Shown: positions 3-42,419 of the stretch, piece after piece
Position numbering within the stretch: position 1 is the stretch's first letter
Layout of the letters: each line of letters begins with the position of its first letter
DNA from: Marinobacterium halophilum
Lineage (GTDB): Bacteria; Pseudomonadota; Gammaproteobacteria; Pseudomonadales; Balneatricaceae
Reading direction: 5' to 3'
NCBI RefSeq assembly: GCF_003014615.1
Contig: NZ_PYGI01000010.1
Span: 62,001-126,000 of the forward strand
DNA: 64,000 bases
Position numbers and translations under genes: made by a program
The notes under the pieces: generated by a model
Databases searched by the model: none
What the model was told of the DNA's origin: nothing
Seen by the model: the letters and a program-made list of their open reading frames with translations, nothing else

Positions 3-746
3 GGCCACCAGCCCCACGTGATACCACACGCCCAGCTGTTCCAGCTGCCCCACCCAGACCAGCACGCCGAGGGTGGCCAGTTGCAACATCCCAACGATCA
101 GCCTGTCGTGGCGGCCAAAGAGTACGGCGGTGGATTTGACCCCGATCTTGAGATCGTCGTCACGGTCGACCATGGCGTACTGGGTGTCGTAGGCCACGGT
201 CCACAGCAGCTTGGCGGCGTAGAGCAGCCAGGCGGTGAGCGGGATCTGCTCCTGAATGGCAGTGAATGCCATCGGAATGGCCCAGCCGAATGCCGCGCCC
301 AGCACCAGTTGTGGCAGGTGGGTGTAGCGTTTCATGAACGGGTAGATGAACGCCAGTGCCAGACCGCCGAACGACATCAGGATGGTCATTGTATTGGTCA
401 GCAGTACCAGCAGAAACGACACCAGCATCAGCCCGCAAAACAGATAGATCGCCTCGCGCTCGGTGACCCGGCCCGATGGCAGCGGGCGAGCGTGGGTGCG
501 CTTGACGTGGCCATCAATGTGGCGATCGGCATAGTCGTTGATGACGCAACCGGCGGAGCGGGTCAGGAACACGCCGAGACTGAAGATGAGCAGCAGGTCC
601 AGCGCCGGGACACCTTCGGCGGCGATCCACAGCGCCCACAGGGTTGGCCACAGCAGCAGATAGGTGCCGATCGGCTTGTCGGCCCGCATCAGCTGGATGT
701 AGGCGGTCAGACGTGTGCGCAGTGAGGGCGTGGATAAAGTCGACAA
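3..746 (-). CDS. ubiA: 4-hydroxybenzoate polyprenyltransferase, 3' end missing
   Basis: This integral membrane enzyme attaches the polyprenyl chain to 4-hydroxybenzoate in ubiquinone synthesis. About 248 residues are visible; the C-terminus lies beyond the left edge of the window. Both UbiA aspartate-rich sites are present: [15 protein letters not shown], and later [14 protein letters not shown], which bind the Mg-diphosphate of the prenyl donor. I chose the TTG start at 746 because CAGGAG lies just upstream and the protein then begins [19 protein letters not shown], normal for the family. It follows ubiC, which makes its substrate, by a short gap on the same strand. Confidence 0.93.
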
Positions 747-4745: not shown

Positions 4746-4769
4746 CTATCTAATCCTCACTCTCACCGA

Positions 4770-7034: not shown

Positions 7035-7100
7035 GGCTGAGAATCCCGAGAAGTGTCGAACTTGATATGGCCGCTACAATAAGTCAAAGACATGACTGTT

Positions 7101-7118
7101 TTGTTACAGCTGTAACAA
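7101..7118. promoter_or_regulatory. 18-bp perfect palindrome before pstC
   Basis: TTGTTACAGCTGTAACAA is a perfect inverted repeat lying between the pstS terminator and pstC. It could be an operator for a separate pstC promoter, or it could extend the terminator structure. The identity of any binding protein cannot be told from the sequence. Confidence 0.45.
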
Positions 7119-7125
7119 AAACAAA

Positions 7126-7150
7126 AAGGGGAGCCAATATGGCTCCCCTT
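7126..7150 (-). terminator. rho-independent terminator after pstS
   Basis: A 10-bp stem (aaggggagcc with ggctcccctt) and 5-base loop is followed on the minus strand by TTTTTGTTTTTG. This is a classic intrinsic terminator, 21 bases past the pstS stop. It probably lets pstS be made in excess of the membrane components. Confidence 0.88.
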
Positions 7151-7171
7151 CGGGTGTGCGGATGCGGGTAG

Positions 7172-8140: not shown

Positions 8141-8186
8141 TGTCGGCTCCTGGTGCGGAAACGGGTTATTGAATGAACATGCACGC

Positions 8187-8220
8187 ACTATAGGCAAGGT
8201 TTGTGACGGGAAGATGACAC
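8187..8220 (-). promoter_or_regulatory. PhoB box and -10 element of pstS
   Basis: On the minus strand GTGTCAT-CTTC-CCGTCAC gives two 7-base half sites in 11-base register, close to the PhoB consensus CTGTCAT-N4-CTGTCAT (plus strand 8203-8220). Ten bases later comes TATAGT (plus strand 8187-8192), the same spacing as in the E. coli pstS promoter, where PhoB replaces the -35 contact. Phosphate-starvation control of pstS by PhoB is therefore very likely. Confidence 0.85.
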
Positions 8221-8348
8221 TGACGGCCATTGCTGTCAGTTGTGGCGGCAGGCGTTTTGGGGGCTATTCTTTGTGTTAAACCTTAGTATTATATGCGCTG
8301 CAGCATAAAGGGGCGCAGGCCTCGTATTCAATTGAGCGGGATCCGATA

Positions 8349-8756
8349 ATGACAACAAGCGAAGATCAGCTGCTCATGCCCGACGGCGAGCTGAGTCTGC
8401 AACTGCCGGCCGGTGCGGATGCAGTCAACATGTTTGGTGATGTGTATGGTGGCTGGGTGGCTTCACAGCTGGTGCTGGCCAGCGAAATACGGGCGGGTCA
8501 GGAAGCCTGCGGGCGGGTTGCGACAGTATCGGTGGGGCGGATGGGATTCATGTCGCCGGTTTTACGCGGCACAGTGCTGAGCTTCCATACGCGTATTATT
8601 GAGCGTGGGCATAGCTCGTTGCGTATTCAGGTCGAGGTGTGGGGACGTTGTCCCGATGGGAATGAATTGCGCAAGGTAACGGGGGCCGAGTGTGTGCAGG
8701 TCGCGATCGATCCGCAGGGACGCATTCGTCGATTGCCGTTGCCCGAGGTGGGCTGA
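8349..8756 (+). CDS. YciA-like acyl-CoA thioesterase
   Basis: This is a 135-residue single hotdog-fold protein of the YciA/acyl-CoA thioesterase group, expected to hydrolyse acyl-CoA esters in the cytoplasm. The segment NMFGDVYGGWVASQLVLAS matches the catalytic GDxxGGW helix of YciA, with the conserved Asp. The central strand VATVSVGRMGFMSPVLRGTVL is also typical. The ribosome site is weak. It is transcribed away from pstS and convergently with the SLC13 transporter. Substrate chain length cannot be read from the sequence. Confidence 0.85.
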   Translation: MTTSEDQLLMPDGELSLQLPAGADAVNMFGDVYGGWVASQLVLASEIRAGQEACGRVATVSVGRMGFMSPVLRGTVLSFHTRIIERGHSSLRIQVEVWGRCPDGNELRKVTGAECVQVAIDPQGRIRRLPLPEVG

Positions 8757-8785
8757 GCCGGACGAGGTCCGGCCCAGGTCGTGCG

Positions 8786-10120
8786 TTAGAGCAGCATCCA
8801 GGCACCGCCGGCGATAATGGCGGTCATCATGACGTTGAGTACTGCACCAGCGCGCATCATTTCACGTTGTGGCAGGTAGCCGGAGCCATAGACGATGGCG
8901 TTGGGCGGCGTTGCGACCGGGAGCATGAAGGCGCAGGACGCTGCAATCGCGATCACCACTGCCATGATCTCGGTCGGCAAGCCCATGCTGCCGGCAATAC
9001 CGACGAAAATAGGCACCAGCAGGGCGCTGCTGGCGGTGTTGCTGGCGATTTCGGTCAGCATGACCACGAACGCAGCCACAGCCAGCAGGAACAACGGGGC
9101 TGATGCATCGGCCATCATCGTGCTCAAGCCTTCAGCCAGGAAGGCGCTGGCACCAGTGGCCTTGAGCATGGCCGACAGGGTCAGACCACCGCCGAACAGC
9201 AGCAACACGCCCCAGTCCGCCGACTTCTCGATCTGCTTCCAGGTGACCAGCTGCAGCATGCACAGCATCAGGATGGCGTTCATCGCAATGATCGAATCCA
9301 GGCCCTTGCTGATGCCGATCAGACCGGCCAGCGGCTTGCTGAACAGCCACATGGCGACGGTCAGTACAAATACGCCCAGCGTCATCCACTGTTTGCCGTT
9401 GAGCGGTTCGTGACGGTGGACTTCGTGGAAGCGGTGGTTCATGTCCGGACGGCACATGAAGTAGAGCACCACGATCATCAGCGGCAACGATACGATGACG
9501 GTGGGGATGCCGAACTTCAGCCAGTCGGTGAAGCTGAGCCCGACTTCGGCGGCGGCAATGGCGTTGGGCGGTGAGCCCACGAGCGTACCGATACCACCGA
9601 TGTTGGCCGAGTAGGCCACACCCAACAGCACGAACCAGTAGGTGCGCTCGTTGTTCTCATAGGGCAGCTGACGCAGCAGACCCAGTGCCAGCGGCAGCAT
9701 CATCGCAGCAGTGGCGGTGTTGGAGATCCACATCGACAGTCCGGCTGCGGTCAGGAACAGCAGAATGGAGGCGGTGCCCAGACGGCCTCGGGCCAGGCGG
9801 ATGACATGCCCGGCGATATATTTGTCCAGCCCCTGGGCATTCAGTGCGGCCGCCAGGCCGAAACCGCCAAGGAACAGGAAGATGATCGGGTTGGCGAAGT
9901 TTCTCAGTGCGTCAGACACAGTGAACACGCCGGCGACCACCGTCAACACCGGCACCAGCAGTGCGGTTACGGTGATGTTGAAGGTTTCGGTCATCCACAG
10001 GATGGCGATAACCGCCAGAATGGCGAGGCCGGTGCGCAGTTCAGGCGCCAGCGGTGCCAGAAACCAGATGCCTGCAGCACTTAGGACTGCCAGCAGAAAG
10101 GTCATCCACTTGCTGGTCAT
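8786..10120 (-). CDS. SLC13/DASS family sodium:carboxylate symporter
   Basis: This inner-membrane secondary transporter of about 444 residues belongs to the divalent anion:Na+ symporter family, which imports succinate, malate, citrate or related anions. The two repeated family signatures are present: WISNTATAAMMLPLALGLL near residue 130 and EIASNTASSALLVPIFVG near residue 360. About eleven hydrophobic segments are visible. I prefer the ATG at 10120 because GGGAGA lies four to five bases upstream; the TTG at 10123 is also possible. It lies 116 bases downstream of the SpmAB-like gene on the same strand. The substrate is unknown. Confidence 0.88.
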   Translation of the reverse strand: MTSKWMTFLLAVLSAAGIWFLAPLAPELRTGLAILAVIAILWMTETFNITVTALLVPVLTVVAGVFTVSDALRNFANPIIFLFLGGFGLAAALNAQGLDKYIAGHVIRLARGRLGTASILLFLTAAGLSMWISNTATAAMMLPLALGLLRQLPYENNERTYWFVLLGVAYSANIGGIGTLVGSPPNAIAAAEVGLSFTDWLKFGIPTVIVSLPLMIVVLYFMCRPDMNHRFHEVHRHEPLNGKQWMTLGVFVLTVAMWLFSKPLAGLIGISKGLDSIIAMNAILMLCMLQLVTWKQIEKSADWGVLLLFGGGLTLSAMLKATGASAFLAEGLSTMMADASAPLFLLAVAAFVVMLTEIASNTASSALLVPIFVGIAGSMGLPTEIMAVVIAIAASCAFMLPVATPPNAIVYGSGYLPQREMMRAGAVLNVMMTAIIAGGAWMLL

Positions 10121-29184: not shown

Positions 29185-30293
29185 AAGTGGTACAGGTATT
29201 ACCGGCGCTGGAGCTGGGCGGAGTCGAACGTGGCACGCTGGAAGTCGCGCGAGGCCTGGTCGCGGCAGGTCATGAGTCGGTGGTGGTATCCGCCGGTGGT
29301 CGCCTGGTTGAACAGCTGGAGCGCGAAGGCAGTCGTCATGTGCCGTGGGAGCTGGGCAAGAAATCCCTGCTCACCTTCCTGCAGGTCCCGAAGTTCCGGC
29401 GCTGGCTGGCACAGGAACAGCCCGACATCGTGCATGTGCGCTCCCGCATGCCGGCATGGGTGGTATGGCTGGCCTGGCGGACGATGGATCCAGCCAGGCG
29501 GCCGCGGTTTATCACCACTTTGCACGGCATGCACTCGATCAATCGTTACAGTGCCATCATGGGCCGGGGCGAGCGTGTTATCGCGGTCTCTGAAACGGCC
29601 AAACGCTATCTGCTGGACAATTTTTCCGGCGTGGATCCGGCAAAGGTGACGGTGATTCATCGCGGTATCGATCCCAACGAATTTCCGCCCGGCTATCAGC
29701 CCGCTGATGCGTGGAAAGAGCAACTGTTCAGTGATTATCCCGCTGCCAAAAACAAGCATTTGATCTGTTTTCCGGGTCGCATCACCCGCTGGAAAGGACA
29801 TCTGGATCTGGTCAAGGTAGTTGCAGAACTGTGCCGTCAGCGTCAGGATTTCCATGTGTTGGTGGTGGGCAGTGACCCCAAGGACAAGTTCATCCATGAG
29901 GTGAAAACCGCCATTAGTGAGGCCGGGCTGGATGCTTATTTCTCGTTTCTTGGTACCCGCTCCGATATGAAAGAGCTATACGCCGTGGCTGACGTGACAT
30001 TGTCGTTGACTTCAACAACCGCCGAGGCCTTTGGTCGTACGGTGGTTGAGTGTCTGTCCGTTGGCACGCCGGTGATCGGCTATGCCCATGGTGCAGTGGC
30101 GGAAACCTTGGGGGCGATTTACCCGCAGGGAAAAGTGGAGACAGGTGACGTTCAGGCTGTTGTGCGCAAAGTGGCTGCCGTTATCGAGGGCGAGTCCGCA
30201 CCGATACAGGACAACCCGTTTGTGCAGCACCGGATGCTCACTGAAACTTTGAATCTATACACCGACGTCACAGGAGCCGGCACGCCGTCATGA
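29175..30293 (+). CDS. GT4-family glycosyltransferase
   Basis: This 372-residue GT-B enzyme of family GT4 has the N-terminal glycine loop ELGGVERGTLEVARGL, the linker FPGRITRWKGHLDLVKVV and the C-terminal donor site with acidic residue in SLTSTTAEAFGRTVVECLSVGTPVIG. It is likely to add a sugar to the LPS core or O-unit on the cytoplasmic face. It overlaps its neighbours on both sides (ELM1-type gene and ligase-like gene), so these genes form one operon. Confidence 0.85.
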   Translation: MVVKVVQVLPALELGGVERGTLEVARGLVAAGHESVVVSAGGRLVEQLEREGSRHVPWELGKKSLLTFLQVPKFRRWLAQEQPDIVHVRSRMPAWVVWLAWRTMDPARRPRFITTLHGMHSINRYSAIMGRGERVIAVSETAKRYLLDNFSGVDPAKVTVIHRGIDPNEFPPGYQPADAWKEQLFSDYPAAKNKHLICFPGRITRWKGHLDLVKVVAELCRQRQDFHVLVVGSDPKDKFIHEVKTAISEAGLDAYFSFLGTRSDMKELYAVADVTLSLTSTTAEAFGRTVVECLSVGTPVIGYAHGAVAETLGAIYPQGKVETGDVQAVVRKVAAVIEGESAPIQDNPFVQHRMLTETLNLYTDVTGAGTPS

Positions 30294-31531
30294 GTACCTT
30301 ATCATTGCCCACTTCACGAGGCGGGTTGTTGGCCGTAGGCTTGATGGCCTGTTTTGTGCTGTTATTGCCGCTGACGGAAGCGGTGCATATTGTACCGCTG
30401 TTGCTGATACTGGGCAGCGTGTTCATGCGCAACCAGCTCACCAGGTTTGAGGGTTTTAACCAATTTCTGGCAATTGCCCTGTTGTTGACGGTGCCTGCGG
30501 CCATTGCCGCCATCGGTGCGCGGGATGTGGAAAAAACCTTGATCGATGCCGTGCGTATCGGGCTCTATTTCTATGCCGGTCTGGTATTGCTGATGCTGAA
30601 TCGGGAGGCACTCTCGGCGCGGTTGTCGGATCTGCTGTTTTACCTGGTCCTGCTGATCTCGCTGGCCTGGAGTGCTGATGCCATTATCCAGTATGCCAGC
30701 GGCAAGAACCTGCTGGGTTTCGAATACAACAATTACCGCGTGACCGGTGTGTTCCATCCCAAAATGCGGATCGGCATCGTTCTGGCCCATTTGCTGCCTT
30801 TCTCGATCGAAGCCTGTCGCCGCTGGTCCGCTTACCGAGTTGGCAGTCTGTCATGGTTGCTGCTGATACCGATTCTGTTTGTCATCATTATTGGCGGCAG
30901 TCGTTCATCCTGGCTGGTGGCGGTAGCGGCTATCTTTGGCTATATGCTGTTCTTCGTGTGGCAGGGTGTCGTGTCCAGAAAAGCCGTGCTGGTCGGCTTG
31001 GTCATCAGCACGGCAGCTGCGCTGGCGGCCTACGAATGGGTGCCCCAGTTTCAGCAGCGCATGGATCGTACCGCACAGATTTTTGATCTGAGCGAAGACT
31101 CGCTGAATGCGGCAACGTCCATGCGTGGCGAAGTCTGGGCTGCGGCCTGGTCGCTGTTCAAGGACGACCCGATTAACGGCATTGGCCAGGGTGCCATGGC
31201 CAGCATGACCGAAGAGCAGCAGTTGGCCAGTCGAGGCTATCCTCACGCGCATTTCTTTGGTCTGGATGTTCTGATGTATGCCGGACTGATCGGTTTTGTC
31301 GCCTATATGCTGGCGTTTGCGGTGTTGATGCAGCGTTGGTGGCAGGCCGCGCGGGGGGGGCGTTGTGGTGACTTTGCACTGACCTTTGCCGCCGTGCTGA
31401 TGGCGATGCCGATCAATACGCACTGGGGCATTTATTCGACGCTGTCGTCGTCGATCATGTGCATGTTGATTATTGTCAGCTTTCTGCGGACACAGGAATC
31501 TGAGCGCTCTGTCGTTGGAGCCGGCGCATGA
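30290..31531 (+). CDS. O-antigen ligase (WaaL/Wzy-C) family membrane protein
   Basis: This 413-residue protein has ten or more hydrophobic helices and the WaaL/Wzy_C pattern: a central Arg-containing loop (VIIIGGSRSSWLVAVAAIFG) and a long periplasmic loop with the His in GYPHAHFFGLDVLMYAG. Such proteins join O-antigen or another glycan from undecaprenyl diphosphate to lipid A-core. Assignment as ligase rather than polymerase rests on the core-cluster context. ATGA overlaps join it to both neighbours. Confidence 0.8.
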   Translation: MSTLSLPTSRGGLLAVGLMACFVLLLPLTEAVHIVPLLLILGSVFMRNQLTRFEGFNQFLAIALLLTVPAAIAAIGARDVEKTLIDAVRIGLYFYAGLVLLMLNREALSARLSDLLFYLVLLISLAWSADAIIQYASGKNLLGFEYNNYRVTGVFHPKMRIGIVLAHLLPFSIEACRRWSAYRVGSLSWLLLIPILFVIIIGGSRSSWLVAVAAIFGYMLFFVWQGVVSRKAVLVGLVISTAAALAAYEWVPQFQQRMDRTAQIFDLSEDSLNAATSMRGEVWAAAWSLFKDDPINGIGQGAMASMTEEQQLASRGYPHAHFFGLDVLMYAGLIGFVAYMLAFAVLMQRWWQAARGGRCGDFALTFAAVLMAMPINTHWGIYSTLSSSIMCMLIIVSFLRTQESERSVVGAGA

Positions 31532-32208
31532 TTGACTTGCACGGGCTGACTCCGTTCGCCAGCGGCGGCAATCGCCACTGTTACATTCACCCCGAGGATG
31601 CGGGCAAGTGTGTCAAGGTGGCACGCCAGGAAGTGATCGACAAGCGCTTCAAGGGATCGTCCTGGATCAAGCGCCAGCAGGGGCGTGATCGGCTGGATGA
31701 CAACCTGCAGGAGCTGAAGGGGTATCGGCAGCTGCGTAAAGTGGCCGCCAGTCCGCAGCTGTATGACCATATCCCGCAGCTCTGGGGGCGTGAGCTGACC
31801 TCTGAAGGGATGGCCAACGTCAGTGAACTGATCACAACCGCGACGGGGGAGGTGGCACCGAATCTGTCGCAATGGCTGGTACAGCAGGGCATGGATGAGG
31901 CGACCACGGTTGCCATTCGTGAGTTCCAGTCCTGGTTGCGCGCGCACCAGGTGCTGACGCGGAACCTGCTGCCGCATAACCTTGCGGTCAAATCGGGGCC
32001 GCAGGGGATACGTCTGTACATTATCGACGGCTTGGGTGCGCCGGACTTTCTGGCGCTGTTATACCCGTTGCGCTCCTGGCGACAACAGTACATTGAACGC
32101 AAGATCCGCAACATGAACCTGCGTATTCAATGGGAGCTGGACGGACGTCCGGGCCAGTGGCGTACAGCGCAGAAGGCGATCATTGCGCGCAGCAAGCACT
32201 CGAAATGA
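31528..32208 (+). CDS. YrbL-family kinase-like protein
   Basis: This 226-residue protein resembles YrbL, a member of the PhoP regulatory network in enterics. It keeps a kinase-like N-lobe (FASGGNRHCYIHPEDAGKCVKVAR, with a candidate ATP lysine), a helix with LQELKGYRQLRKV, and a C-lobe loop NLLPHNLAVKS in the catalytic-loop position, followed by LYIIDGLGAPDF with an Asp where kinases bind metal. It overlaps the ligase-like gene. A core-sugar kinase role is an inference from context; no experimental function is known to me. Confidence 0.75.
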   Translation: MIDLHGLTPFASGGNRHCYIHPEDAGKCVKVARQEVIDKRFKGSSWIKRQQGRDRLDDNLQELKGYRQLRKVAASPQLYDHIPQLWGRELTSEGMANVSELITTATGEVAPNLSQWLVQQGMDEATTVAIREFQSWLRAHQVLTRNLLPHNLAVKSGPQGIRLYIIDGLGAPDFLALLYPLRSWRQQYIERKIRNMNLRIQWELDGRPGQWRTAQKAIIARSKHSK

Positions 32209-32221
32209 TCGCGCTCCGCTG

Positions 32222-33274
32222 TTAGCCCTCCGCCTGCATGCGCCGATACAGGTCAATATAGGCCTGCATCACGGGGGCCGTGGCATAGTGACGGTTTAGG
32301 GTTTCGTAGCCATTGTGGATTAGTTGCTGGCGCAACGCTTCATCATCGGCAAGTCGCATGATGTGCCTTACCAGTGCAGCACTGTCATCTTTGGGGAAGA
32401 TCAGCGCGTTGTCTTCGTGGCGTGTAATGGCGCTCGCCCCCTGTGAATCCGAACTGACCAGCGGCAGCTGGTGTGACCAGGCTTCGAGCAGAACGCTGCC
32501 AAAGGGTTCGTGTCGGGATGGCACGATGAACAGGTCGCTGATATGGCAGTATTGGGAAATGTTGTCGGTCCAGCCGACAAAGTGTACCCGCTGTTGTAAT
32601 CCCAGCTGCGTGACCTGCTGTTGCAGTGATGCTTCCTCCGGGCCTTGCCCCGCAATAATGTAGACGTACTGTTCAGGCAGCTGCGTGAGCGCGGCAATGG
32701 CCGTATCCAGCCCTTTGACGCCATGCAGGCGGGCTGGTGTGAACAGGACTTTCTTGCCTTCAAGCCTCAGTTGCTGGCGCAGGCGCTGCGAGCATTGCGG
32801 ATCCTCCGGCTTCGCTGGATTGACGAAGTTCGGGATCACGGCAGTGCGTTCAGCAGGGTGTCCACCGTCGCGAATGTGTCGGGCGAGATCATCGGTTGCG
32901 CCCACCAGCCAGTGCATGCGAGTAAAGTTCTTCAGTGCATAATAGCCACCCAGTCGTCCCAGATTCAGCGTGCCGTCCACGCGGGGCATGAGGCTGGCGG
33001 CACGGCTCATCCAGCACTGTGCAACCTGGGCCTGCTCCCGCTGCGCAATGCGCTTAAGTTGATAGCGGGTGTAAAGATCCCAGCGGGCCATGAACGGTAA
33101 TTCATATACCCGCACCGAGGTGGCCTTGAACTGCTCTGCCAGCCATGACCCCTTACGGACAACGGCTATGACGCGCACGGCTTCGGTATGGTCCAGCGCG
33201 AGACAAAAACGCAGGAAATGGGATTCGGCACCGCCGGGCTTGTTGGCGCCGCAGACCTGCATCACTGTAATCAT
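32222..33274 (-). CDS. GT4-family glycosyltransferase
   Basis: This 350-residue GT-B enzyme has the acceptor-side glycine loop ANKPGGAESHFLRFC, the linker FTPARLHGVKGLDTAIAAL and the donor site FIVPSRHEPFGSVLLEAWSHQLPLVSS. It is likely another LPS or core sugar transferase. It overlaps the upstream acyltransferase by four bases (ATGA), so the two are translationally coupled. It runs convergently to the YrbL-like gene with a 13-base gap. Donor and acceptor are unknown. Confidence 0.85.
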   Translation of the reverse strand: MITVMQVCGANKPGGAESHFLRFCLALDHTEAVRVIAVVRKGSWLAEQFKATSVRVYELPFMARWDLYTRYQLKRIAQREQAQVAQCWMSRAASLMPRVDGTLNLGRLGGYYALKNFTRMHWLVGATDDLARHIRDGGHPAERTAVIPNFVNPAKPEDPQCSQRLRQQLRLEGKKVLFTPARLHGVKGLDTAIAALTQLPEQYVYIIAGQGPEEASLQQQVTQLGLQQRVHFVGWTDNISQYCHISDLFIVPSRHEPFGSVLLEAWSHQLPLVSSDSQGASAITRHEDNALIFPKDDSAALVRHIMRLADDEALRQQLIHNGYETLNRHYATAPVMQAYIDLYRRMQAEG

Positions 33275-34215
33275 CGGGACTCCGGTTGGTCAGCGGACGA
33301 GCGGTAAAGGTACCCCTTGCCCTTGGGATGGGTCTTGAAACGTCGATGAACCCACATGTATTGCGCCGGATCCTTGCGGATGGCACGCTCGATTTCGGCA
33401 TTGATACGCGCGGCATCCGCTGCTTCATCCCCTGTCGGAAACGGGGTGATGACCGGAAACAGTTCAAGTTCGTAGCCGGAATCATCCGGCAGACGATGTT
33501 GGGCAAGCATCAGGATTGGCGATTTGTTCAGTTTGACCATCCGCGTGGTGGCCGTGATGGTGGCGGCCGGGATGCCGAAAAACGGAGCGTATACCGACTG
33601 CTTGCTGCCGAAATCCTGATCCGGCGCATACCAGATAATATGATTCTGGCGCAGTCCTTTGATCACACTGCGGATATCGGAGCGCTCAATGGTCATATCA
33701 AAGAAGCGGTTGCGTCCGCGGGTAATGATCTGCTCCATCAACGGGTTGTTATGGCGGCGATACATGGCATCGACGGGATAGAATTCGGAAAACAACAACC
33801 CGCCAAGGTCGAGGGTGGAAAAGTGCGCGCCCAGCAAAATAACCCCGTTCTTCTGTTGCAGAGCGGCGTCCAGGTGTTCGCGTCCCTTGAGAGTGACGTG
33901 GTTACGCAAGCATTTGCGCGGTGTCCACCACGCCATGGCGGTTTCGAAGATGCCAATGCCGTTGTTGGCAAACACCGCCTTGACCATCTGCTCCTGCTCG
34001 GTGTCGCTCAGCTCCGGGAAACACAAGCGGATATTGGTACGTGTGACGTGACGCCGTTTGCCGTTAAGCAGATACAGTCCGCGCCCCAGAATTCGGCCGA
34101 GACGTATCTGCCACCGCCATGGCAGGCGGTTGAGCATCCAGAGGATTCCGAATCCCAGCCAGACAGGCCAGAAGCGCGGGCTGATGAAATGTTTAGCGGT
34201 ACGGTCGTGGCTCAC
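33271..34215 (-). CDS. lipid A acyltransferase, LpxL/LpxM (HtrB/MsbB) family
   Basis: This inner-membrane enzyme transfers a secondary acyl chain to Kdo-lipid A precursors. It begins with a membrane anchor (FWPVWLGFGILWML) and has the catalytic HX4D motif HFSTLDLGG, the upstream FETAMAWW segment and the conserved IIWYAPDQDFG. I prefer the GTG at 34215, giving 314 residues. The ATG at 34320 would add an unusual Pro/Thr-rich extension and nearly reach the divergent ugd start. Which chain it adds cannot be told. Confidence 0.87.
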   Translation of the reverse strand: MSHDRTAKHFISPRFWPVWLGFGILWMLNRLPWRWQIRLGRILGRGLYLLNGKRRHVTRTNIRLCFPELSDTEQEQMVKAVFANNGIGIFETAMAWWTPRKCLRNHVTLKGREHLDAALQQKNGVILLGAHFSTLDLGGLLFSEFYPVDAMYRRHNNPLMEQIITRGRNRFFDMTIERSDIRSVIKGLRQNHIIWYAPDQDFGSKQSVYAPFFGIPAATITATTRMVKLNKSPILMLAQHRLPDDSGYELELFPVITPFPTGDEAADAARINAEIERAIRKDPAQYMWVHRRFKTHPKGKGYLYRSSADQPESR

Positions 34216-34376
34216 GGATACACCGATGGCTGTGGCTGTGTGGTGAATTGTATCGTTGCATGCAAGGGGCGGCAAACCCGGCCCGGGTGCTGTGCGGAAG
34301 GGGAAACGGCGCGGTGACACGAGTCATGTTATGATGCGCCCTTGTACCGCTGATAAAAGATCTGAGTAGGTAGCAG

Positions 34377-35546
34377 ATGAAAATAGCCGTAGCAGGAACG
34401 GGTTATGTCGGACTTTCCAATGCTGTGCTGCTGGCACAGCATAACGAAGTCGTGGCGCTGGATATCGTACCCGAGAAGGTTGAGTTGCTGAATGCAGGCC
34501 AGGCTCCGATCGAGGATGCCGAGATCAGTGCATATTTGGCGTCGGGTGCGTTGAACCTGCGGGCAACGCTGGACAAGGATGACGCCTATGCCGGCGCTGA
34601 CTTCGTCATTATTGCCACGCCGACCGATTATGATCCGCAAACCAATTATTTCAACACACGCAGTGTAGAGGCGGTGGTTGAAGATGTGATGGCGCTGAAT
34701 CCACAAGCGGTGATGGTAATCAAATCGACCGTGCCGGTTGGTTTCACCCGTGCGCTATCCGAGCGTTTGGGGACCTCAAACCTGCTGTTCTCTCCCGAAT
34801 TCCTGCGTGAAGGGCTGGCGCTATACGACAACCTGTATCCGTCCCGCATCATTGTGGGCGAGCGTTCGGAGCGGGGCGAGAACTTTGCCCGCCTGTTGCA
34901 GCAGGGTGCCAAGAAAGAGACGATTCCGCTGCTGTTTACAGACTCGACAGAAGCCGAAGCGATCAAGCTGTTTGCCAATACCTATCTGGCCATGCGGGTG
35001 GCGTATTTCAATGAGCTCGACACCTATGCCGAGGTGCATGGGCTGGATGCACGCCAGATTATCGAAGGCGTGGGACTCGACCCGCGTATCGGCACGCACT
35101 ACAACAACCCGTCCTTCGGATATGGCGGTTATTGCCTGCCCAAGGATACCAAGCAGCTGCTGGCCAACTATGATCAGGTGCCGAATAACCTGATCCGGGC
35201 CATTGTCGATGCCAATACGACCCGCAAGGATTTCATTGCCGAGTCGGTGCTGCGCCTTAACCCTGCCGTCGTGGGTATCTATCGACTGGTGATGAAGGCG
35301 GGCTCAGACAATTTCCGTGCCTCGGCCATTCAGGGCGTGATGAAGCGGATCAAGGCGAAAGGGGTCGAAGTGGTGGTCTATGAGCCAGTTCTTGATGCCG
35401 AAGATTTCTTCAATTCGCGGGTCATTCAGGATCTGGACGAGTTCAAGGCGACCAGCGATGTCATTATTGCCAACCGCTTGACCGACGACCTGCGCGACTG
35501 TGCAGACAAGGTCTATACGCGGGACCTGTTTGGCGGCGACGCCTGA
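34377..35546 (+). CDS. ugd: UDP-glucose 6-dehydrogenase
   Basis: This enzyme oxidises UDP-glucose to UDP-glucuronate, a precursor for core sugars, capsules and L-Ara4N. The 389 residues have the N-terminal NAD loop [21 protein letters not shown], the catalytic Cys in [15 protein letters not shown] near residue 254, and match the 388-residue E. coli enzyme. It opens a plus-strand unit ugd-msbA-GT39. No arnA, arnB or arnD homologue is in the window. Confidence 0.94.
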
Positions 35547-35600: not shown

Positions 35601-37382
35601 ATGTCCGCACACGAGCAGAACAGCCCCTCCGTTTCCGGTGCGTCCGAAATCAGTGCCTGGCAGATCTATCGGCGTCTGTTGGGTTATGCGAAGCACCTAT
35701 GGCCGGTGTTTCTTGTATGTTTTATCGGTTTTGCCATCTATGGTGCCGGGCAGGCGCTGTCAGCCAAGTGGCTGGAGATGGTGGTGGATACGGTGCAAAA
35801 AGGCGCTTACGACCAGCGCTACTTTCTTGCCAGTGCGGTCTTGGGCATTTTCGTGCTGCGGGGCGTGGGTGCCTTCATCGGCAACTACAGTATTGCCTAT
35901 GTTGGCCGGGAAGTGATTCACCGTTTGCGTACTCAGGTATTTGAACAGTTGTTGCTGCTGCCGTCCCAATATTACAGCCATCACTCCAGTGGCGAGCTGC
36001 TGGCCAAGTTGACCTACAACGTCGAGCAGGTCACCGAGTCTGTCACCAATGCGATCAAGGTGCTGTTCCGTGAAGGTCTGACCGTGGTGGGCTTGTTGGG
36101 CTACATGTTCTATCTCAACTGGAAGCTGACGCTCATCTTTGTGGCGGCGGGTCCGTTGATCGGACTGGTGGTTTCCATGGCGGCACGGCGGATGCGCAAG
36201 CTGAGCAAGCGTATTCAGGAGTCGGTGGGTGACATTACCGAAGCCGCGTCAGAATCCATCAAGGGCTATCAGGTCGTCCGTATCTTCGGGGGTACGGAAG
36301 CAGAGAAGCAACGTTTTGAAACGGCCAGTATCAAGAACAAGCAACAGTTCATGAAGCTGGTGGTGACCAAGTCGCTGAACACGCCGATCATCCAGATGCT
36401 GGTGGCGCTGGCATTATCCATGCTGCTGTTTCTGGCGATGCATCCGGATGTGATGGGAACCATGAGTACGGGCGGTTTTGTCGCTTTTCTGACGGCGGCG
36501 GGCATGATTACCAAGCCGCTGCGACTGCTGACCGATGTCACCTCGATTGTGCAAAAGGGAATCGCGGCGGCAGAAAGCCTGTTTGAAGTCCTGGATGCAA
36601 CGGTGGAAGAAGACACCGGCGCTCGAGTGCTGGATGAAGTCGGCGAGATCGAATTTCGTCACCTTGGTTTTGCTTATCCCGGCACCGACAAGCAAGTGCT
36701 GCAGGACATCTGCCTGCGCTTGCCGCCGGGTAAAACGGTGGCGCTGGTGGGCCGTTCCGGCAGCGGCAAAACCACATTGGCGAGTTTGCTGCCGCGGTTC
36801 AATGACGGCTGGAGCGGCGACCTGCTGATCAATGGCGAGCCGCTGGAATCCTTTACGCTGGAAAGTCTGCGCAGCAACATCTCGCTGGTGAATCAGAACG
36901 TGGTGCTGTTCAACGGCACCATCGCCGAGAATATCGCCTATGGCAGCATGGCCGGTGCCAGTGAAACGGCGATTTTGGCGGCCGCCGAGGCGGCCCATGT
37001 GATGGAGTTTGTGGAGCGCCTGCCGGACGGATTACACACCCGCGTCGGTGAAAACGGCGTGCTGCTGTCCGGCGGTCAGCGCCAACGTATCGCCATTGCG
37101 CGCGCCATTCTCAATGATGCGCCGATCCTGATCCTGGACGAGGCAACATCGGCACTGGACACCACATCCGAACGTCATATTCAGGAAGCTCTGGAAGGGG
37201 TGATGCGCGGGCGTACCACGCTGGTGATTGCCCACCGCCTGTCTACGATTGAGAAGGCCGACATCATTGTGGTGATGGATAACGGCCGTATTGTGGAGCA
37301 GGGCTCCCATTCCGAACTGCTTGAACAGCAAGGTGCGTACGCCCAGTTCCACATCCTTCAGACTGATACTGATCCGAGCTAG
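35601..37382 (+). CDS. msbA: lipid A export ABC transporter/flippase
   Basis: This half-transporter flips lipid A-core across the inner membrane. It has 593 residues: six membrane helices to about residue 330, then the ATPase with Walker A GRSGSGKTT near residue 390, signature LSGGQRQR, Walker B ILILDEATSALDT and IVIAHRLST-type switch. Its place between ugd and a membrane glycosyltransferase, near an LpxL-type gene and waaA, supports msbA over other exporters. Confidence 0.92.
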   Translation: MSAHEQNSPSVSGASEISAWQIYRRLLGYAKHLWPVFLVCFIGFAIYGAGQALSAKWLEMVVDTVQKGAYDQRYFLASAVLGIFVLRGVGAFIGNYSIAYVGREVIHRLRTQVFEQLLLLPSQYYSHHSSGELLAKLTYNVEQVTESVTNAIKVLFREGLTVVGLLGYMFYLNWKLTLIFVAAGPLIGLVVSMAARRMRKLSKRIQESVGDITEAASESIKGYQVVRIFGGTEAEKQRFETASIKNKQQFMKLVVTKSLNTPIIQMLVALALSMLLFLAMHPDVMGTMSTGGFVAFLTAAGMITKPLRLLTDVTSIVQKGIAAAESLFEVLDATVEEDTGARVLDEVGEIEFRHLGFAYPGTDKQVLQDICLRLPPGKTVALVGRSGSGKTTLASLLPRFNDGWSGDLLINGEPLESFTLESLRSNISLVNQNVVLFNGTIAENIAYGSMAGASETAILAAAEAAHVMEFVERLPDGLHTRVGENGVLLSGGQRQRIAIARAILNDAPILILDEATSALDTTSERHIQEALEGVMRGRTTLVIAHRLSTIEKADIIVVMDNGRIVEQGSHSELLEQQGAYAQFHILQTDTDPS

Positions 37383-37387
37383 CCCTT

Positions 37388-38854
37388 ATGCCTACCCCTA
37401 CCGCCCCCGAGCGGGGCCTGCTGCGTCTGTTGATCGTATACTTTCTGGCCTGGGGGCTGCTCCCCGGGTTGCTGGTAGAAAGCCTGCCGCTGGATGTGGT
37501 TGAAGGCGTGTACTGGGGGCAGGAGTGGCAGTGGGGGTATTACAAACACCCGCCGCTGCCGGCCTGGGTTCTGTACCTGTTTGAGCGCGCTTTGGGTGAC
37601 GTTGGCCCCTTTGTACTCAGCCAGCTCTGTATTGCCTTGACGCTGTTCTGCGTCTGGCATATTGGCTGTCGGACGCTGGACCGGCCGCGTGCCGCGTTCG
37701 GCGTGCTGGCTCTGATGGGGGTGTATTTCTTTACGTGGCCGACCATCGAATTCAACCATAATGTGGCGCAAATGCCGATCTGGGCGGCAGCTGTGTTGCT
37801 GTTCCATCGCGGCATTACCCACTGGCGTCATACCGACTGGTTGCTGCTGGGGCTGGTGTCCGGGCTGGGGTTGCTGACCAAATATTCCTACATCATGCTG
37901 CTGGCGGCGATGTTCCTGTGGCTGGTGGTGCAGCCCTCGCTGCGGGCCGGATTGCTCAAGCTGCAGCCTTGGGCCGGTGTGCTGTTGATGGGGCTGGTAT
38001 TCCTGCCGCACCTGTTGTGGCTGGTGGAACATGATTTCCTGCCGTTCAGCTATGCCGCCGCGCGCTCGGAAGCCGCTGCAGCAACCGAATCCCGCTGGCT
38101 GGGGCCGCTGAAATTCCTGCTGGTACAGCTGGTTGATCATCTGCCGCTGTTGATTCTGTTGCTGCTGGCCGGTTTCTGGCGCCGGCGCTGCTGGCAGGCA
38201 CCGTTGGCGAGTTCCGCGTTCCTGTTCTGGATCGGCTTGATGCCGGCGCTGCTGACGGCACTGGGCGCGCTGCTGACAGGTGCCGGAACGCGCGACATGT
38301 GGGGCGCGCCGATGTGGAACCTGTCGGGACTGATGCTGGCGGCCCTGATGCCAGCGGCGGTGCTGGCACAGTACTGGCGTCGACTCTGTTGGGTGTTTAC
38401 CGGTTTCCTTGGCGTGTTGACGGTGCTGATGGTGCTGTTTGTCGGCTTCAAGGACCAGATTCGTGACAAGCCTTCTCGTACCGGCTGGCCCGATGCCGCA
38501 TTGGCCAATGGCCTCCAGCAACAGTGGCAGCAGCGCAGCGCCTGCCCCTTGTCACTGGTGGCGGGTGACTACTGGCTGGCCGAGACGGTGGCGATCAACC
38601 TGTCTCCCCGCGCTGCAGCGATCCCGGACGCCGATTTTACTCTGGCCCCCTGGGCTGATGCCGAGCGCTTGCGCAGGCAGGGAGGGCTGTTGATCTGGGC
38701 GTCGGGAGACCGGCGCTGGCAGCAGGCGTTGCCCGAAGCGGGGCACTGGGATGCCGAGGGCGAGCTGATGCTGCCCTGGCCGCGACTGCCTGAACGTGAG
38801 CCGTTGGCGGTTCAGTGGCGGCTCTGGCTACCTGAAGGCCGCTGTGACGATTGA
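37388..38854 (+). CDS. GT39/ArnT-like membrane glycosyltransferase
   Basis: This 488-residue GT-C enzyme has about eleven hydrophobic helices and the first periplasmic loop of the PMT/ArnT superfamily, with the acidic DVVEG followed by YYKHPPLPAW. Members take sugars from polyprenyl phosphate at the periplasmic face. It starts five bases after msbA and converges with a deacetylase, GtrA and GT2 set on the other strand. I infer it attaches the sugar made by those genes to lipid A or core. It is not ArnT itself by any motif I can see. Confidence 0.8.
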   Translation: MPTPTAPERGLLRLLIVYFLAWGLLPGLLVESLPLDVVEGVYWGQEWQWGYYKHPPLPAWVLYLFERALGDVGPFVLSQLCIALTLFCVWHIGCRTLDRPRAAFGVLALMGVYFFTWPTIEFNHNVAQMPIWAAAVLLFHRGITHWRHTDWLLLGLVSGLGLLTKYSYIMLLAAMFLWLVVQPSLRAGLLKLQPWAGVLLMGLVFLPHLLWLVEHDFLPFSYAAARSEAAAATESRWLGPLKFLLVQLVDHLPLLILLLLAGFWRRRCWQAPLASSAFLFWIGLMPALLTALGALLTGAGTRDMWGAPMWNLSGLMLAALMPAAVLAQYWRRLCWVFTGFLGVLTVLMVLFVGFKDQIRDKPSRTGWPDAALANGLQQQWQQRSACPLSLVAGDYWLAETVAINLSPRAAAIPDADFTLAPWADAERLRRQGGLLIWASGDRRWQQALPEAGHWDAEGELMLPWPRLPEREPLAVQWRLWLPEGRCDD

Positions 38855-38867
38855 TTGAACGATCAGA

Positions 38868-39656
38868 TCAGAGCAGCGCGGGGCGCTTGCTCAAGGTGCG
38901 CTGATGTTGCTGCAACGCATTGGCGCAGGCTGCACTGGCCAGCCAGTTACGCTCTTCTTCGCGCGCCCGTGCCAGGGGGGAGCGTCCATCGGTATATCCC
39001 GGATGACACATGATCAACCCCCCGTCCGGCAGCGTGTTGAACCAGTGTGTCATCATCGTTCCGAAGCCCGCTTCGGGCTGTAGCGAATACATGCCGGCAA
39101 AGTCGCGAGTGCCGGCGATGGCGTAACGCCGGCGCATGCGCTCAAATCCCACTCCCATCATGTTCAGAATCAACGCCTTGAAGCGTGCATCGTGGCCACT
39201 TAAGGCGGGTGTAGATACGCGGATCCAGGGGCAATTATGACCGTAACGGCGCGCCAGCGTTGTCAGTACGATCTGGCGGATGACGGGGAACATCTGGATA
39301 TGTTGGTGACCATCGACAAAGTCCGGCGCATGGCCAAGCTGCTGTTCGAACCGGTCCAGTTGAGTCTCCAGCGCCTGCTGGATGTGTTGGCGATCGATCC
39401 GTCCGCTCAGGCTCTGTTGCATCAGTTGCCCCAGAGGCGTGGCGTGATCACCCTCGGTCAGATTGAAGTGCAGGCCCAGAGCCGCCTTGCCATGCAGAGC
39501 CAGCAGTTCGGTAGCCGCTTCCGCGTGCCAGGCGGGCATGGTGGTCATGCAGCTGGTAGCGGACAGACGACCCTGGCGGATCAGTGCCAGAATGGCGCGG
39601 TTGATGCCTTCGGACAAACCAAAGTCATCCGCGCAGAGAACGAGTGAACGGCTCAT
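38868..39656 (-). CDS. YdjC/ChbG/NaxD-family carbohydrate deacetylase
   Basis: This 262-residue metal-dependent deacetylase has the family start LVLCADDFGLSEGINRAI, the metal histidines in VDGHQHIQMFP, LGLHFNLTEG and the late CHPGYTDGRSPLA loop. The family includes ChbG, hopanoid HpnK and Francisella NaxD, which deacetylates polyprenyl-phosphate-GalNAc before transfer to lipid A. The ATG at 39656 overlaps the GtrA stop (ATGA). Context favours a NaxD-like role; this is inference. Confidence 0.83.
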   Translation of the reverse strand: MSRSLVLCADDFGLSEGINRAILALIRQGRLSATSCMTTMPAWHAEAATELLALHGKAALGLHFNLTEGDHATPLGQLMQQSLSGRIDRQHIQQALETQLDRFEQQLGHAPDFVDGHQHIQMFPVIRQIVLTTLARRYGHNCPWIRVSTPALSGHDARFKALILNMMGVGFERMRRRYAIAGTRDFAGMYSLQPEAGFGTMMTHWFNTLPDGGLIMCHPGYTDGRSPLARAREEERNWLASAACANALQQHQRTLSKRPALL

Positions 39657-40024
39657 GCGAATGCCCAGAATTTGCCCAGCACATAGGTCAGTACCGCTAC
39701 GCTGCCCAGTACCAGCAGCATGGCGATGTCGTAGCGCAAGGGGGTGAACTGCAACAAGGCCCAATACAGGGCCTCATTCAGCATAAAGCTGCTGGCGGCA
39801 ACCGTGGCGAAGCGGGGCAGGGTGCGCCGGTGCGAACGCTCGCTGGCCTTGAAGGTCAGGTGGCGATGGCCGAAATAGCTGACGTTGAAGGCGACCAGAA
39901 AGGCGACCACATTGGCCAGCAGCGGGTGCAGCCCGACCAGTGGTACCAGTAACACCACGATCAGCCAGTGCGTCAGCAGTGCGCTGACGCCGACGAAGAT
40001 GAAACTCAGCGCTTCACGTGTCAT
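39653..40024 (-). CDS. GtrA-family membrane protein (putative polyprenyl-sugar flippase)
   Basis: This is a predicted 123-residue protein with four hydrophobic helices and the GtrA middle motif FLVAFNVSYFGHRHLTF. GtrA proteins are thought to move polyprenyl-phosphate-linked sugars across the membrane. The start MTREALSF at 40024 is preferred, overlapping the GT2 stop by 11 bases; the start at 40054 is possible. It lies between GT2 and the deacetylase, with overlaps on both sides. Confidence 0.83.
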   Translation of the reverse strand: MTREALSFIFVGVSALLTHWLIVVLLVPLVGLHPLLANVVAFLVAFNVSYFGHRHLTFKASERSHRRTLPRFATVAASSFMLNEALYWALLQFTPLRYDIAMLLVLGSVAVLTYVLGKFWAFA

Positions 40025-41057
40025 CGGTAGTGTCCGTTGCGGTGGTGCGGTCACGGAAAGAGTGACGACGGCTGACCAGATACAGGGGGCGGGCTTTCAC
40101 TTCCGAGAAGATGCGGGCGATATATTCGCCGAGGATACCGACCGAAAACAGTTGGATACCGCCCAGAAAGGCGATGCCGGCGGCAATGGTGGGCCAGCCG
40201 GGTACGTCCGAGCCGAACAGCAGGGTACGCATCACGATGAGGAACGCATAGAGCAGGGACAGCACGGATATGCCGGCCCCGATCAGCATCCACACCCGCA
40301 AGGGGGCACTGCTGAAGCTGGTGAAGCCGGTCAGCGCCAGCGAGGACAGATGACGCAGGCGGAAGTTGCTGGTGCCGCCCATGCGGGGTGCCACTGTGAA
40401 CGTGACCGCCTTGCTGGGAAAGCCGACCCAGGCGTAGAGGCCTTTCATCATCCGCGAACGCTCCGGCAGCTGGCGCAAAGCCAATACCACGCGACGGTCC
40501 AGCAGGCGGAAATCACCGGCATCGGGGTGAATGTCGATTTCGGCACTGCGGCTGAGGACTTTGTAGAACAGGTTGGTCAGGTGGCGCTTGGCTGCTGACT
40601 CATCGGCACGGTTGTCACGCACGCCAAACACCATGTCGTAGCCCTGACGCCAGTGATGAAAAAACTGATCGATCGCTTCCAGTGGATGTTGGCCATCGGC
40701 GTCCATCAGCAACACGACCTCACCCTCGGCATGGTCAATGCCTGCACTGAGCGCAGCCTCCTTGCCGAAATTGCGGGACAGCTGCAACACGGTGACCGGG
40801 TACTCATCGACCAGTGCCGCTGCCACGGCGACGGTCGCGTCCCGGCTGCCATCATCGATCACCAGCAATTCAATTTGGTCGGAAAAACGTTGCAGATAAG
40901 CGGTCAGCTCGGGAATGAGTCGGCCCAGATTTTCCGCTTCATTGTAGGCCGGCAGAATGCAGGTGAGGCTGGGCCGGTCTTGCCGTTGTACATCGGGGGA
41001 GGGGAAGGTGTTGTCGTCCATACTGATATCCACAGTCGCCGTCGCTTGAGCGGCCAT
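40014..41057 (-). CDS. GT2 polyprenyl-phosphate glycosyltransferase (GtrB/ArnC/FlmF-like)
   Basis: This 347-residue enzyme has an N-terminal GT-A domain (CILPAYNEAENLGRLIP, VIDDGSRDAT, LLMDADGQHP with the DxD) and two C-terminal membrane helices (VWMLIGAGISVLSLLYAFLI and IAAGIAFLGGIQLFSVGILG). This layout is typical of enzymes that load a sugar onto undecaprenyl phosphate on the cytoplasmic face. The start at 41057 leaves a 90-base divergent gap to waaA; the ATG at 41021 is an alternative. It heads the GT2-GtrA-deacetylase operon. Confidence 0.85.
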   Translation of the reverse strand: MAAQATATVDISMDDNTFPSPDVQRQDRPSLTCILPAYNEAENLGRLIPELTAYLQRFSDQIELLVIDDGSRDATVAVAAALVDEYPVTVLQLSRNFGKEAALSAGIDHAEGEVVLLMDADGQHPLEAIDQFFHHWRQGYDMVFGVRDNRADESAAKRHLTNLFYKVLSRSAEIDIHPDAGDFRLLDRRVVLALRQLPERSRMMKGLYAWVGFPSKAVTFTVAPRMGGTSNFRLRHLSSLALTGFTSFSSAPLRVWMLIGAGISVLSLLYAFLIVMRTLLFGSDVPGWPTIAAGIAFLGGIQLFSVGILGEYIARIFSEVKARPLYLVSRRHSFRDRTTATDTTDDT

Positions 41058-41147: not shown

Positions 41148-42419
41148 ATGAATGCCCTGCTGCTCAGCCTTTACAGCCTCCTGTTCTACGTGCTCACGCC
41201 GGTTCTGTTGCTGCGTCTGTGGTGGCGTGGGCGTACGGCTCCCGGTTATCGCCGCAACTGGCGTCAGCGGCTGGGTCTTGGAGCCGTCATTCACCAACCG
41301 GTGATCTGGGTACATGCGGTGTCGGTGGGCGAAACGGTCGCGATTGCGCCGCTGGTACGCTGGCTGCTGCAGCGTTATCCCGCACACCGCATTCTGATCA
41401 CCAACATGACGCCGACCGGTGCGGCGCAGGTGAAATCCCTGTTTGGAGATCGGGTGGAACAACGGTTCTGCCCCTGGGATCTGCCGCTGGCGCTGAGGGT
41501 GTTCTTGCGTCGGACACGACCGCAGCTGTGCATCATCGTGGAAACCGAGTTGTGGCCTAACCTGGTGGCACAGTGTGCCCGTGCCAAGGTGCCGGTGCTG
41601 TTGGCCAATGCACGGCTGTCGGCGCGTTCAGCCCGTGGCTATCGCAGGTTTGCCGTGCTGGCCCAACCGATGTTGCAGCACCTGGACCTGATCGCGGCAC
41701 AGAACCATGCCGATGCCGAGCGTTTTATCGCGCTGGGCATGCCGGCCGAGCGAGTTGAAGTCACCGGCAGCATCAAGTTTGATCTGCAGCCGGATGCAGG
41801 CAAGGTTGCAGCTGGCCGGCAGTTGCGTGAACGATTGGGGTCGGGTCGGCCGGTGCTGATTGGTGCCAGTACCCATCAGGGTGAAGACGAGATTCTGTTA
41901 CAGGCCTGGCAGCAGCTGCAGTCGGCGCATCCTGGTCTGGTGCTGATTCTGGTGCCGCGCCATCCCGAGCGGTTTGCCGATGTCGCCCGGTTGTGTCGTC
42001 AATACAGCGAGCGGCTGGTGTGCCGCAGCGAGGACGCGCAGCCGGATACACAGACCGAACTTTACCTGGGTGACACCATGGGCGAGTTGATGCTGCTGTA
42101 TGCCGCCGCCGATATCGCCTTTGTGGGCGGCAGTTTCAGTGGTACCGGCGGGCATAACCCGCTGGAACCCGCCGCGCTGGGGGTACCGGTGGTGATGGGG
42201 CCGGACTGTTTCAACTTCCAGAGCATTACCGATGCCCTGGGCGAAGCGGGTGGGTTGGTGCGGGTGGAGACCCCCGCCGCGCTGACCGACCAGTTGGCGC
42301 TGTGGCTGGAACGCGCGGACCAGCGCCGTGCGGCGGGTCGGCAAGGGGCCGATTTTGTCGCCGCCAATCGCGGCGCGCTGGGTCGGTTGCAACATGCTGT
42401 CGAGCGCTTGCTGCCCTGA
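41148..42419 (+). CDS. waaA: Kdo transferase
   Basis: WaaA adds Kdo from CMP-Kdo to the lipid A precursor. The 423 residues begin with a membrane anchor (LLLSLYSLLFYVLTPVLLL). The catalytic glutamate region is WVHAVSVGETVAIAPL, followed by FVETELWPN-type IIVETELWPNL and the donor region FVGGSFSGTGGHNPLEPAALGVPVVMG. It stands alone on the plus strand, converging with cyaY. Confidence 0.95.
   Translation: MNALLLSLYSLLFYVLTPVLLLRLWWRGRTAPGYRRNWRQRLGLGAVIHQPVIWVHAVSVGETVAIAPLVRWLLQRYPAHRILITNMTPTGAAQVKSLFGDRVEQRFCPWDLPLALRVFLRRTRPQLCIIVETELWPNLVAQCARAKVPVLLANARLSARSARGYRRFAVLAQPMLQHLDLIAAQNHADAERFIALGMPAERVEVTGSIKFDLQPDAGKVAAGRQLRERLGSGRPVLIGASTHQGEDEILLQAWQQLQSAHPGLVLILVPRHPERFADVARLCRQYSERLVCRSEDAQPDTQTELYLGDTMGELMLLYAAADIAFVGGSFSGTGGHNPLEPAALGVPVVMGPDCFNFQSITDALGEAGGLVRVETPAALTDQLALWLERADQRRAAGRQGADFVAANRGALGRLQHAVERLLP

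Follow-up and report, generated by a model that had tools for sequence, protein, structure and literature searches.

Decoration of lipid A with hexosamines is best known from pathogens. In the related ArnBCADTEF pathway for 4-amino-4-deoxy-L-arabinose (L-Ara4N), a carrier-linked amino sugar is deprotected in the cytoplasm, flipped and then transferred in the periplasm. Here we describe four adjacent genes in a 64,000-nt stretch of Marinobacterium halophilum contig NZ_PYGI01000010.1 (the window; genome of 3.65 Mb in 47 contigs, 99.9% complete). They encode a GT39 membrane glycosyltransferase, a YdjC-family deacetylase, a GtrA-like membrane protein and a GT2 sugar synthase. Together they probably form a self-contained system that adds an amino sugar to lipopolysaccharide (LPS) outside the cytoplasm through an undecaprenyl-phosphate hexosamine pathway.

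Two described systems run parallel to this set, the Bordetella Lgm system for lipid A glucosamine and the Francisella FlmF2/NaxD/FlmK system for lipid A galactosamine; the likeness is one of gene kinds and descriptions, not of directly compared sequences. LgmA is a GT2 and LgmC is YdjC-like, and the glucosamine transferase of Bordetella is reportedly an ArnT ortholog, as the title of one paper calls it. NaxD belongs to the YdjC family, and the steps of the Francisella route run in the order FlmF2, NaxD, FlmK. In Bordetella, glucosamine on the lipid A phosphate is reported to require lgmA, lgmB and lgmC, the clustered lgmD being non-essential (PMC4993483), and Achromobacter lipid A likewise carries glucosamine (PMC9927164). 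Francisella FlmF2 is described as ArnC-like and galactosamine-specific (PMC8306577), and flmF2 and flmK as glycosyltransferase genes tied to lipid A galactosamine (PMC4688374).

By homology, the window locus shares with the NaxD and Lgm systems a YdjC protein that is neither ChbG nor HpnK and an adjacent ArnC/GtrB-like GT2. Two features set it apart from Bordetella: its transferase had no match to the ArnT equivalog model, and its genes are embedded in the region between msbA and waaA. The predicted ArnT fold of GT39 is held in common with the L-Ara4N pathway, whereas neither a full-length ArnA nor an ArnT equivalog was found and YdjC and GtrA replace ArnD and ArnE/F, respectively. The components of GtrABC O-antigen glucosylation, a GtrB-kind GT2, GtrA and a GT-C transferase (PMC11127046), are all present as well; the window adds a deacetylase, its GT2 does not share the clade of E. 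coli YfdH and its genes lie among lipid A genes. A search of the open-licence literature (titles and beginnings of abstracts) returned no description of a GT2-GtrA-YdjC-GT39 set. The complete and compact set, tied to msbA and waaA, extends to environmental bacteria (Marinobacterium and Nitrincola are among the named loci described below), and GtrA is proposed as the carrier flippase of a hexosamine pathway.

Organisation of the four-gene set

GT2, gtrA and ydjC form an overlapping operon on the minus strand (41057-38868), with an overlap of 11 nt between GT2 and gtrA (using the gtrA ATG start) and of 4 nt between gtrA and ydjC. GT39 follows the msbA stop after 5 nt on the same strand and converges on ydjC, their stops being 13 nt apart, and the GT2 start lies 90 bp from the divergent waaA start (Table 1). 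Reading frames and Pfam domains agreed with the original prediction, made from the sequence, of four membrane-sugar genes side by side. The neighbours it had named (msbA, waaA, an LpxL-type acyltransferase and ugd) all scored above the cut-offs of curated models, the last through TIGR03026 but not through the Ugd equivalog model PRK15057 (679.9 bits, cut-off 757). An upstream GTG at 40054 would give a longer gtrA frame; the shorter ATG start was preferred because it agrees with the lengths matched in relatives.

PF13231, PF04138 and PF04794 each had a single match in the whole genome, all at this locus, and a search with the GT2 of a congeneric genome (G001) returned the window GT2 as the only match at E ≤ 1e-40. 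Because each protein is single-copy here, the four most likely function together, barring partners of unknown families. Between 35400 and 41400, no promoter-like site was found (1.8 expected) and terminator-like sites numbered 6 (4.8 expected). Recent arrival on a plasmid left no sign: the GC content of the cassette (0.618) is near that of the window (0.598), and a tblastn search of GT39 against a plasmid collection gave 4 partial matches with 27-31% identity.

Table 1 Genes of the proposed amino-sugar system and their neighbours, in window coordinates
Gene or product	Position	Strand	Supporting match
GT39 (PMT_2) membrane glycosyltransferase, proposed periplasmic transferase	37388..38854	+	PF13231 PMT_2, 92.9 bits
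YdjC-family deacetylase, proposed undecaprenyl-phosphate-N-acetylhexosamine deacetylase	38868..39656	-	PF04794, 184.6 bits
GtrA-like membrane protein, proposed flippase	39653..40024	-	PF04138, 91.0 bits (frame scored from GTG 40054)
GT2 polyprenyl-phosphate sugar synthase, GtrB/ArnC kind by homology	40014..41057	-	PF00535, 107.6 bits
msbA, exporter of lipid A-core, immediately upstream of GT39	35601..37382	+	TIGR02203, 714 bits (cut-off 602)
waaA, transferase of 3-deoxy-D-manno-octulosonic acid (Kdo), divergent from GT2	41148..42419	+	NF004388, 527.2 bits (cut-off 438)
LpxL-type lipid A acyltransferase, context	33271..34320	-	LpxL/LpxP model TIGR02207, 351.4 bits (cut-off 297.8)
ugd-type nucleotide-sugar dehydrogenase, context	34377..35546	+	TIGR03026, 337.9 (cut-off 189.8)

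GT2 and YdjC are consistent with the synthesis of a carrier-linked amino sugar

Among solved structures, the best match of the GT2 was Synechocystis GtrB (5ekp, E = 7.7e-87), and ArnC structures were matched at E = 3.9e-37 to 1.2e-34; homology thus places the protein in the GtrB/ArnC kind of undecaprenyl-phosphate GT2. In a quick tree of 93 GT2 rows with several long branches, which leaves aside 17 loci (nearly all repeats of family genomes, so that G006, G112 and G114 are absent), the window GT2 fell within a clade of 71 members, every one with a YdjC gene within 6 kb (SH-aLRT 96). YdjC linkage changed 3 times on this tree as compared to 15.0 times in shuffles, none of the 500 shuffles being as low. 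In one genus of the bacterial family of M. halophilum (g2), 10 genomes had a YdjC match, 9 of them in frames of 525-559 aa. Two frames were examined, L042 8277-9872 (G008) and L043 7104-8699 (G035), and both proved to be 532-aa fusions of an N-terminal GT2 and a C-terminal YdjC, which is consistent with a deacetylase acting on the product of the GT2.

Residues D10, D11, H63, D115, H117, H119 and H218 of YdjC are invariant in 7 of 7 aligned sequences; residues of this kind are presumably metal-binding in the YdjC family. Inspection by eye revealed neither a signal peptide nor a membrane segment, and the conserved ADD motif stands right at the start of the protein, which should therefore be cytoplasmic.

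The original prediction had named ChbG and HpnK as the identities that would count against a hexosamine role. The protein shares PF04794 with both enzymes, and among solved structures a chitooligosaccharide deacetylase comes nearest to it (E = 1.7e-13). It nevertheless remained well below the cut-offs of the ChbG model PRK02134 (86 bits, cut-off 227; the E. coli ChbG control reached 399.5) and the HpnK model TIGR03473 (68.1 bits, cut-off 232.6), and the squalene-hopene cyclase family PF13243 had no match in the genome, the control search being positive in 2 of 14 genomes. Both identities were rejected on these grounds. Since ydjC overlaps gtrA and recurs beside GT2 and GtrA genes, a chitooligosaccharide or hopanoid enzyme placed here by chance is highly improbable.

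The plain L-Ara4N route was rejected too. No arnA had been seen in the original prediction, and this held genome-wide: a search with E. coli ArnA, made without ArnB or ArnD queries, gave no full-length match; all it returned were three weak fragments and, at 29% identity, a counterpart of the formyltransferase half. As GT39 also lacked a match to the ArnT equivalog, the earlier view that this route is unlikely was borne out.

GT39 has a predicted ArnT-like fold

A structure model and a fold search were made for GT39, alone of the four proteins. A sequence search against solved structures had no match at E ≤ 1. The AlphaFold model (pLDDT 87.9, pTM 0.89, 21 sequences in the alignment) gave Cupriavidus ArnT as the best of the Foldseek matches listed (E = 1.7e-07), and its superposition on ArnT 5f15 covered 413 residues over the full length (model range 4..481) with a Z score of 23.9 and a root-mean-square deviation of 4.5. 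In agreement with this, profile alignment with ArnT-like proteins reached 97.8% probability. The predicted fold is thus ArnT-like, though the protein is no ArnT equivalog.

From these proteins and their neighbours we infer which sugar is added, in what order the steps run, which molecule accepts it and how the surface charge is affected. The GT2 would load undecaprenyl phosphate with an N-acetylhexosamine taken from a UDP-sugar, the donor sugar being most likely N-acetylglucosamine (GlcNAc), because UDP-GlcNAc is universal, and possibly N-acetylgalactosamine. The soluble YdjC would deacetylate the sugar in the cytoplasm to leave a free amine, GtrA would flip the hexosamine on its lipid carrier through the inner membrane and GT39 would transfer it, in the periplasm, to lipid A-core newly exported via MsbA. 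Because of the ArnT fold and the msbA linkage, we favour a lipid A phosphate as the most likely acceptor; the inner core would be an alternative. The free amine could change the surface charge, and cationic-peptide resistance might follow from it. The logic of this pathway, already put forward in the original prediction, is supported by the GtrB/ArnC kind of the GT2, the YdjC protein distinct from ChbG and HpnK, the ArnT-like fold and the tie to msbA and waaA; a hexosamine as the sugar, lipid A rather than core as its site and peptide resistance are the proposed parts of it.

The set is linked to msbA and waaA in the family

A census of 116 genomes of the bacterial family (thresholds E < 1e-100 for GT39 and E < 1e-60 for YdjC) found GT39 in 21 and YdjC in 18; 16 genomes had both, 5 had GT39 alone, 2 had YdjC alone and 93 had neither (Fisher p = 1.6e-13, an indicative value since the genomes are related). 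In 15 of these 16 genomes the two genes shared a contig and were no more than about 6 kb apart; in G114 they lay on separate contigs. The YdjC frame of G114 is broken (L243, contig C83, 3053-3852), which an assembly error may explain in this draft genome of 87% completeness. Genus-mates G003, G006 and G007 had the same gene order as the window, with protein identities of 67-88%.

Of 17 genomes considered (G001 and the 16 with both genes), 16 had GT39 next to msbA; the exception was G080, where inspection of the locus placed GT39 directly after lpxL and the msbA of relatives was missing (L233 5991-8767). GT2 stood head to head with waaA in 17 of the 18 genomes with YdjC. Among these 17, G112 (84% complete) had no GT39 match and a contig end at waaA; the exception, G067, carried a more distant YdjC, 35% identical to that of the window, which has a GT2 and a PMT_2 protein as neighbours and lies in another genomic place. 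Two layouts were found, which differ by an inversion of the ydjC-gtrA-GT2-waaA block: the first places all four genes between msbA and waaA, and the second has GT2-gtrA-ydjC on the far side of waaA.

In the genus-mates without the set (G002, G004 and G005), msbA directly adjoins waaA. On a tree of four housekeeping proteins the gene-set label changed 5 times, at least 3 of the changes being forced by starred branches, indicating repeated gain or loss of the set. In genus g16, the msbA-waaA interval held other genes (L084 8851-13020 and L086 4099-7558), named by eye as HldE-like, aldo-keto reductase and oxidoreductase; the interval is therefore a variable slot in the family. By eye, locus L041 (G037, 3157-8883) carried GT2-gtrA-ydjC followed by an ArnT-like GT39, a response regulator and a histidine kinase; of the loci seen, it comes closest to a regulated operon for lipid A modification that includes this deacetylase.

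The set recurs outside the family

Among named genomes, we analysed the loci of the best 80 of 486 YdjC relatives; 14 of the 80, and 12 of the 48 complete ones, are family genomes again. All four kinds of gene lay within 6 kb in 48 loci, 26 with the GT39 type of the window and 22 with an ArnT-like protein in its place. Outside the family 36 of 66 loci were complete (14 with GT39, 22 with the ArnT-like protein, the latter found in Chromobacterium, Aquitalea, Pseudogulbenkiania, Pseudomonas otitidis and others). Pfam scans for parts of three modules agreed with this census. The same four-gene set therefore occurs across beta- and gammaproteobacteria, and GtrA, which the original prediction had treated as an extra, is instead part of it.

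Flanking genes were surveyed as 100 proteins from 27 loci of our own choosing outside the family, 4 proteins of locus L163 being left off; 2 of the 100 had response-regulator domains and 3 had histidine-kinase domains, and this survey, aimed at lipid A and regulator genes, brought out no link to either.

In two betaproteobacterial metagenome-assembled genomes (MAGs), L125 (5895-6887) and L142 (3359-4261), an EamA transporter stood beside GT2-YdjC in the usual place of GtrA, with no GT39 near; Legionella locus L116 had both EamA and GtrA. The GT2 of L142, from a MAG titled Bordetella parapertussis, was joined by very short branches to those of MAGs titled Alcaligenaceae, Burkholderiaceae and Methylopumilus, and these titles can hardly all be correct.

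Alternative acceptors

Several observations weigh against hexosamine addition to lipid A. Those on GT39 and its surroundings bear on the acceptor. GT39 had no NCBIfam match at all, the ArnT equivalog included (E. coli ArnT control 805.6 bits, cut-off 567). In the profile alignment its K53-H54 stand where E. coli ArnT has E-K, a pair that we take, by our own mapping of the numbering, to be the counterpart of the residues with which Cupriavidus ArnT reportedly binds the phosphate of the carrier (PMC8306577); the carrier-phosphate residues of ArnT thus seem to be changed in GT39. GtrA, a GT2 and a GT-C transferase also make up the classic three-component O-antigen layout, as described in PMC11127046, and the window has an O-antigen-ligase-like gene and a GT4 gene at a distance of 6-8 kb. 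The same four-step chemistry could thus be directed at the core oligosaccharide or O-antigen, as in GtrABC systems, instead of a lipid A phosphate. Two things count against such an acceptor: within the family, GT39 keeps to msbA and GT2 to waaA, and ArnT gave the best fold match over the full length. We regard this acceptor as a possible but clearly less probable outcome.

Other points concern the tie to lipid A itself. Pmt4 nearly equalled ArnT as a match of the GT39 model (Z 22.9), over the membrane part only (residues 1..361), so that this half of the protein resembles protein O-mannosyltransferases. No lipid A-modifying family was found among the 25 commonest of the 108 flanking families in the survey outside the family. 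MsbA-profile matches near L112, L128, L133 and L145, also outside, reached only 280-333 bits, as against 650-1235 for most family loci. An amino-sugar phospholipid is moreover described in Pseudomonas aeruginosa, where it is made by gpgSDF, proteins of other families (PMC12713373). The set might then decorate another envelope molecule (a protein, an exopolysaccharide or a phospholipid), its LPS neighbours being accidental. Linkage to msbA and waaA that is almost invariable in the family and survives the inversion of a block, together with the one-strand order msbA-GT39-gtrA-GT2-waaA of G001, makes accidental neighbours improbable.

The remaining points concern the integrity of the set. The named loci were chosen by the YdjC of the cassette itself, which biases them to like surroundings. 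At least one part was missing from 32 of the 80, some of them truncated by contig ends: 14 had GT2 and GtrA without GT39, 11 had GT2 alone, 3 lacked one other part and 4 had none. Ten of the 14 loci with GT2 and GtrA but no GT39 near are from Legionella. In the family, the five genomes with GT39 but without YdjC were G001, G013, G027 and G025, all four with GT2 and GtrA adjacent, and G130, whose assembly is too fragmented to show the surroundings.

A possible exchange of the donor sugar in G001

G001, from the same genus, carries msbA-GT39-gtrA-GT2-waaA (L036 7590-13594), and YdjC had no match in its genome. Its GT39 is 72% identical to that of the window and is nested among the GT39s of species with the four genes (100/100 support). 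Its GT2 shares 66.3% identity with E. coli YfdH, which carries the annotation bactoprenol glucosyl transferase, and is sister to YfdH on the GT2 tree; its GtrA is 48.7% identical to E. coli YfdG. From the likeness to YfdH, the donor sugar in G001 is likely, though not certainly, glucose.

In a comparison of four species, changes unique to the G001 GT39 numbered 20 among the 365 columns of its membrane part and 21 among the 119 columns of its C-terminal part, as compared to 35 and 10 for the other three lineages summed (Fisher p = 0.007; a post hoc test on one lineage, with the cut at residue 365 chosen from the model); by this measure the C-terminal part evolved faster in G001. We tentatively suggest that the msbA-linked GT39 may be a transferase with a fixed acceptor and an exchangeable donor arm, hexosamine in most genomes and glucose in G001, whose C-terminal periplasmic domain would read the donor sugar; this is a conjecture that we hold somewhat less probable than its opposite. 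If true, the swap to glucose would turn a cationic LPS decoration neutral, and the GT39s of G001 and the window would be a natural pair of close homologues for studying the donor choice of a GT-C transferase.

Neighbouring genes

The ugd-type gene is unneeded for the proposed pathway. The O-antigen-ligase-like gene lies at 30290-31531 of the window, and a YrbL-like gene (31528-32208; PF10707, 93.9 bits) sits between it and the GT4 gene.

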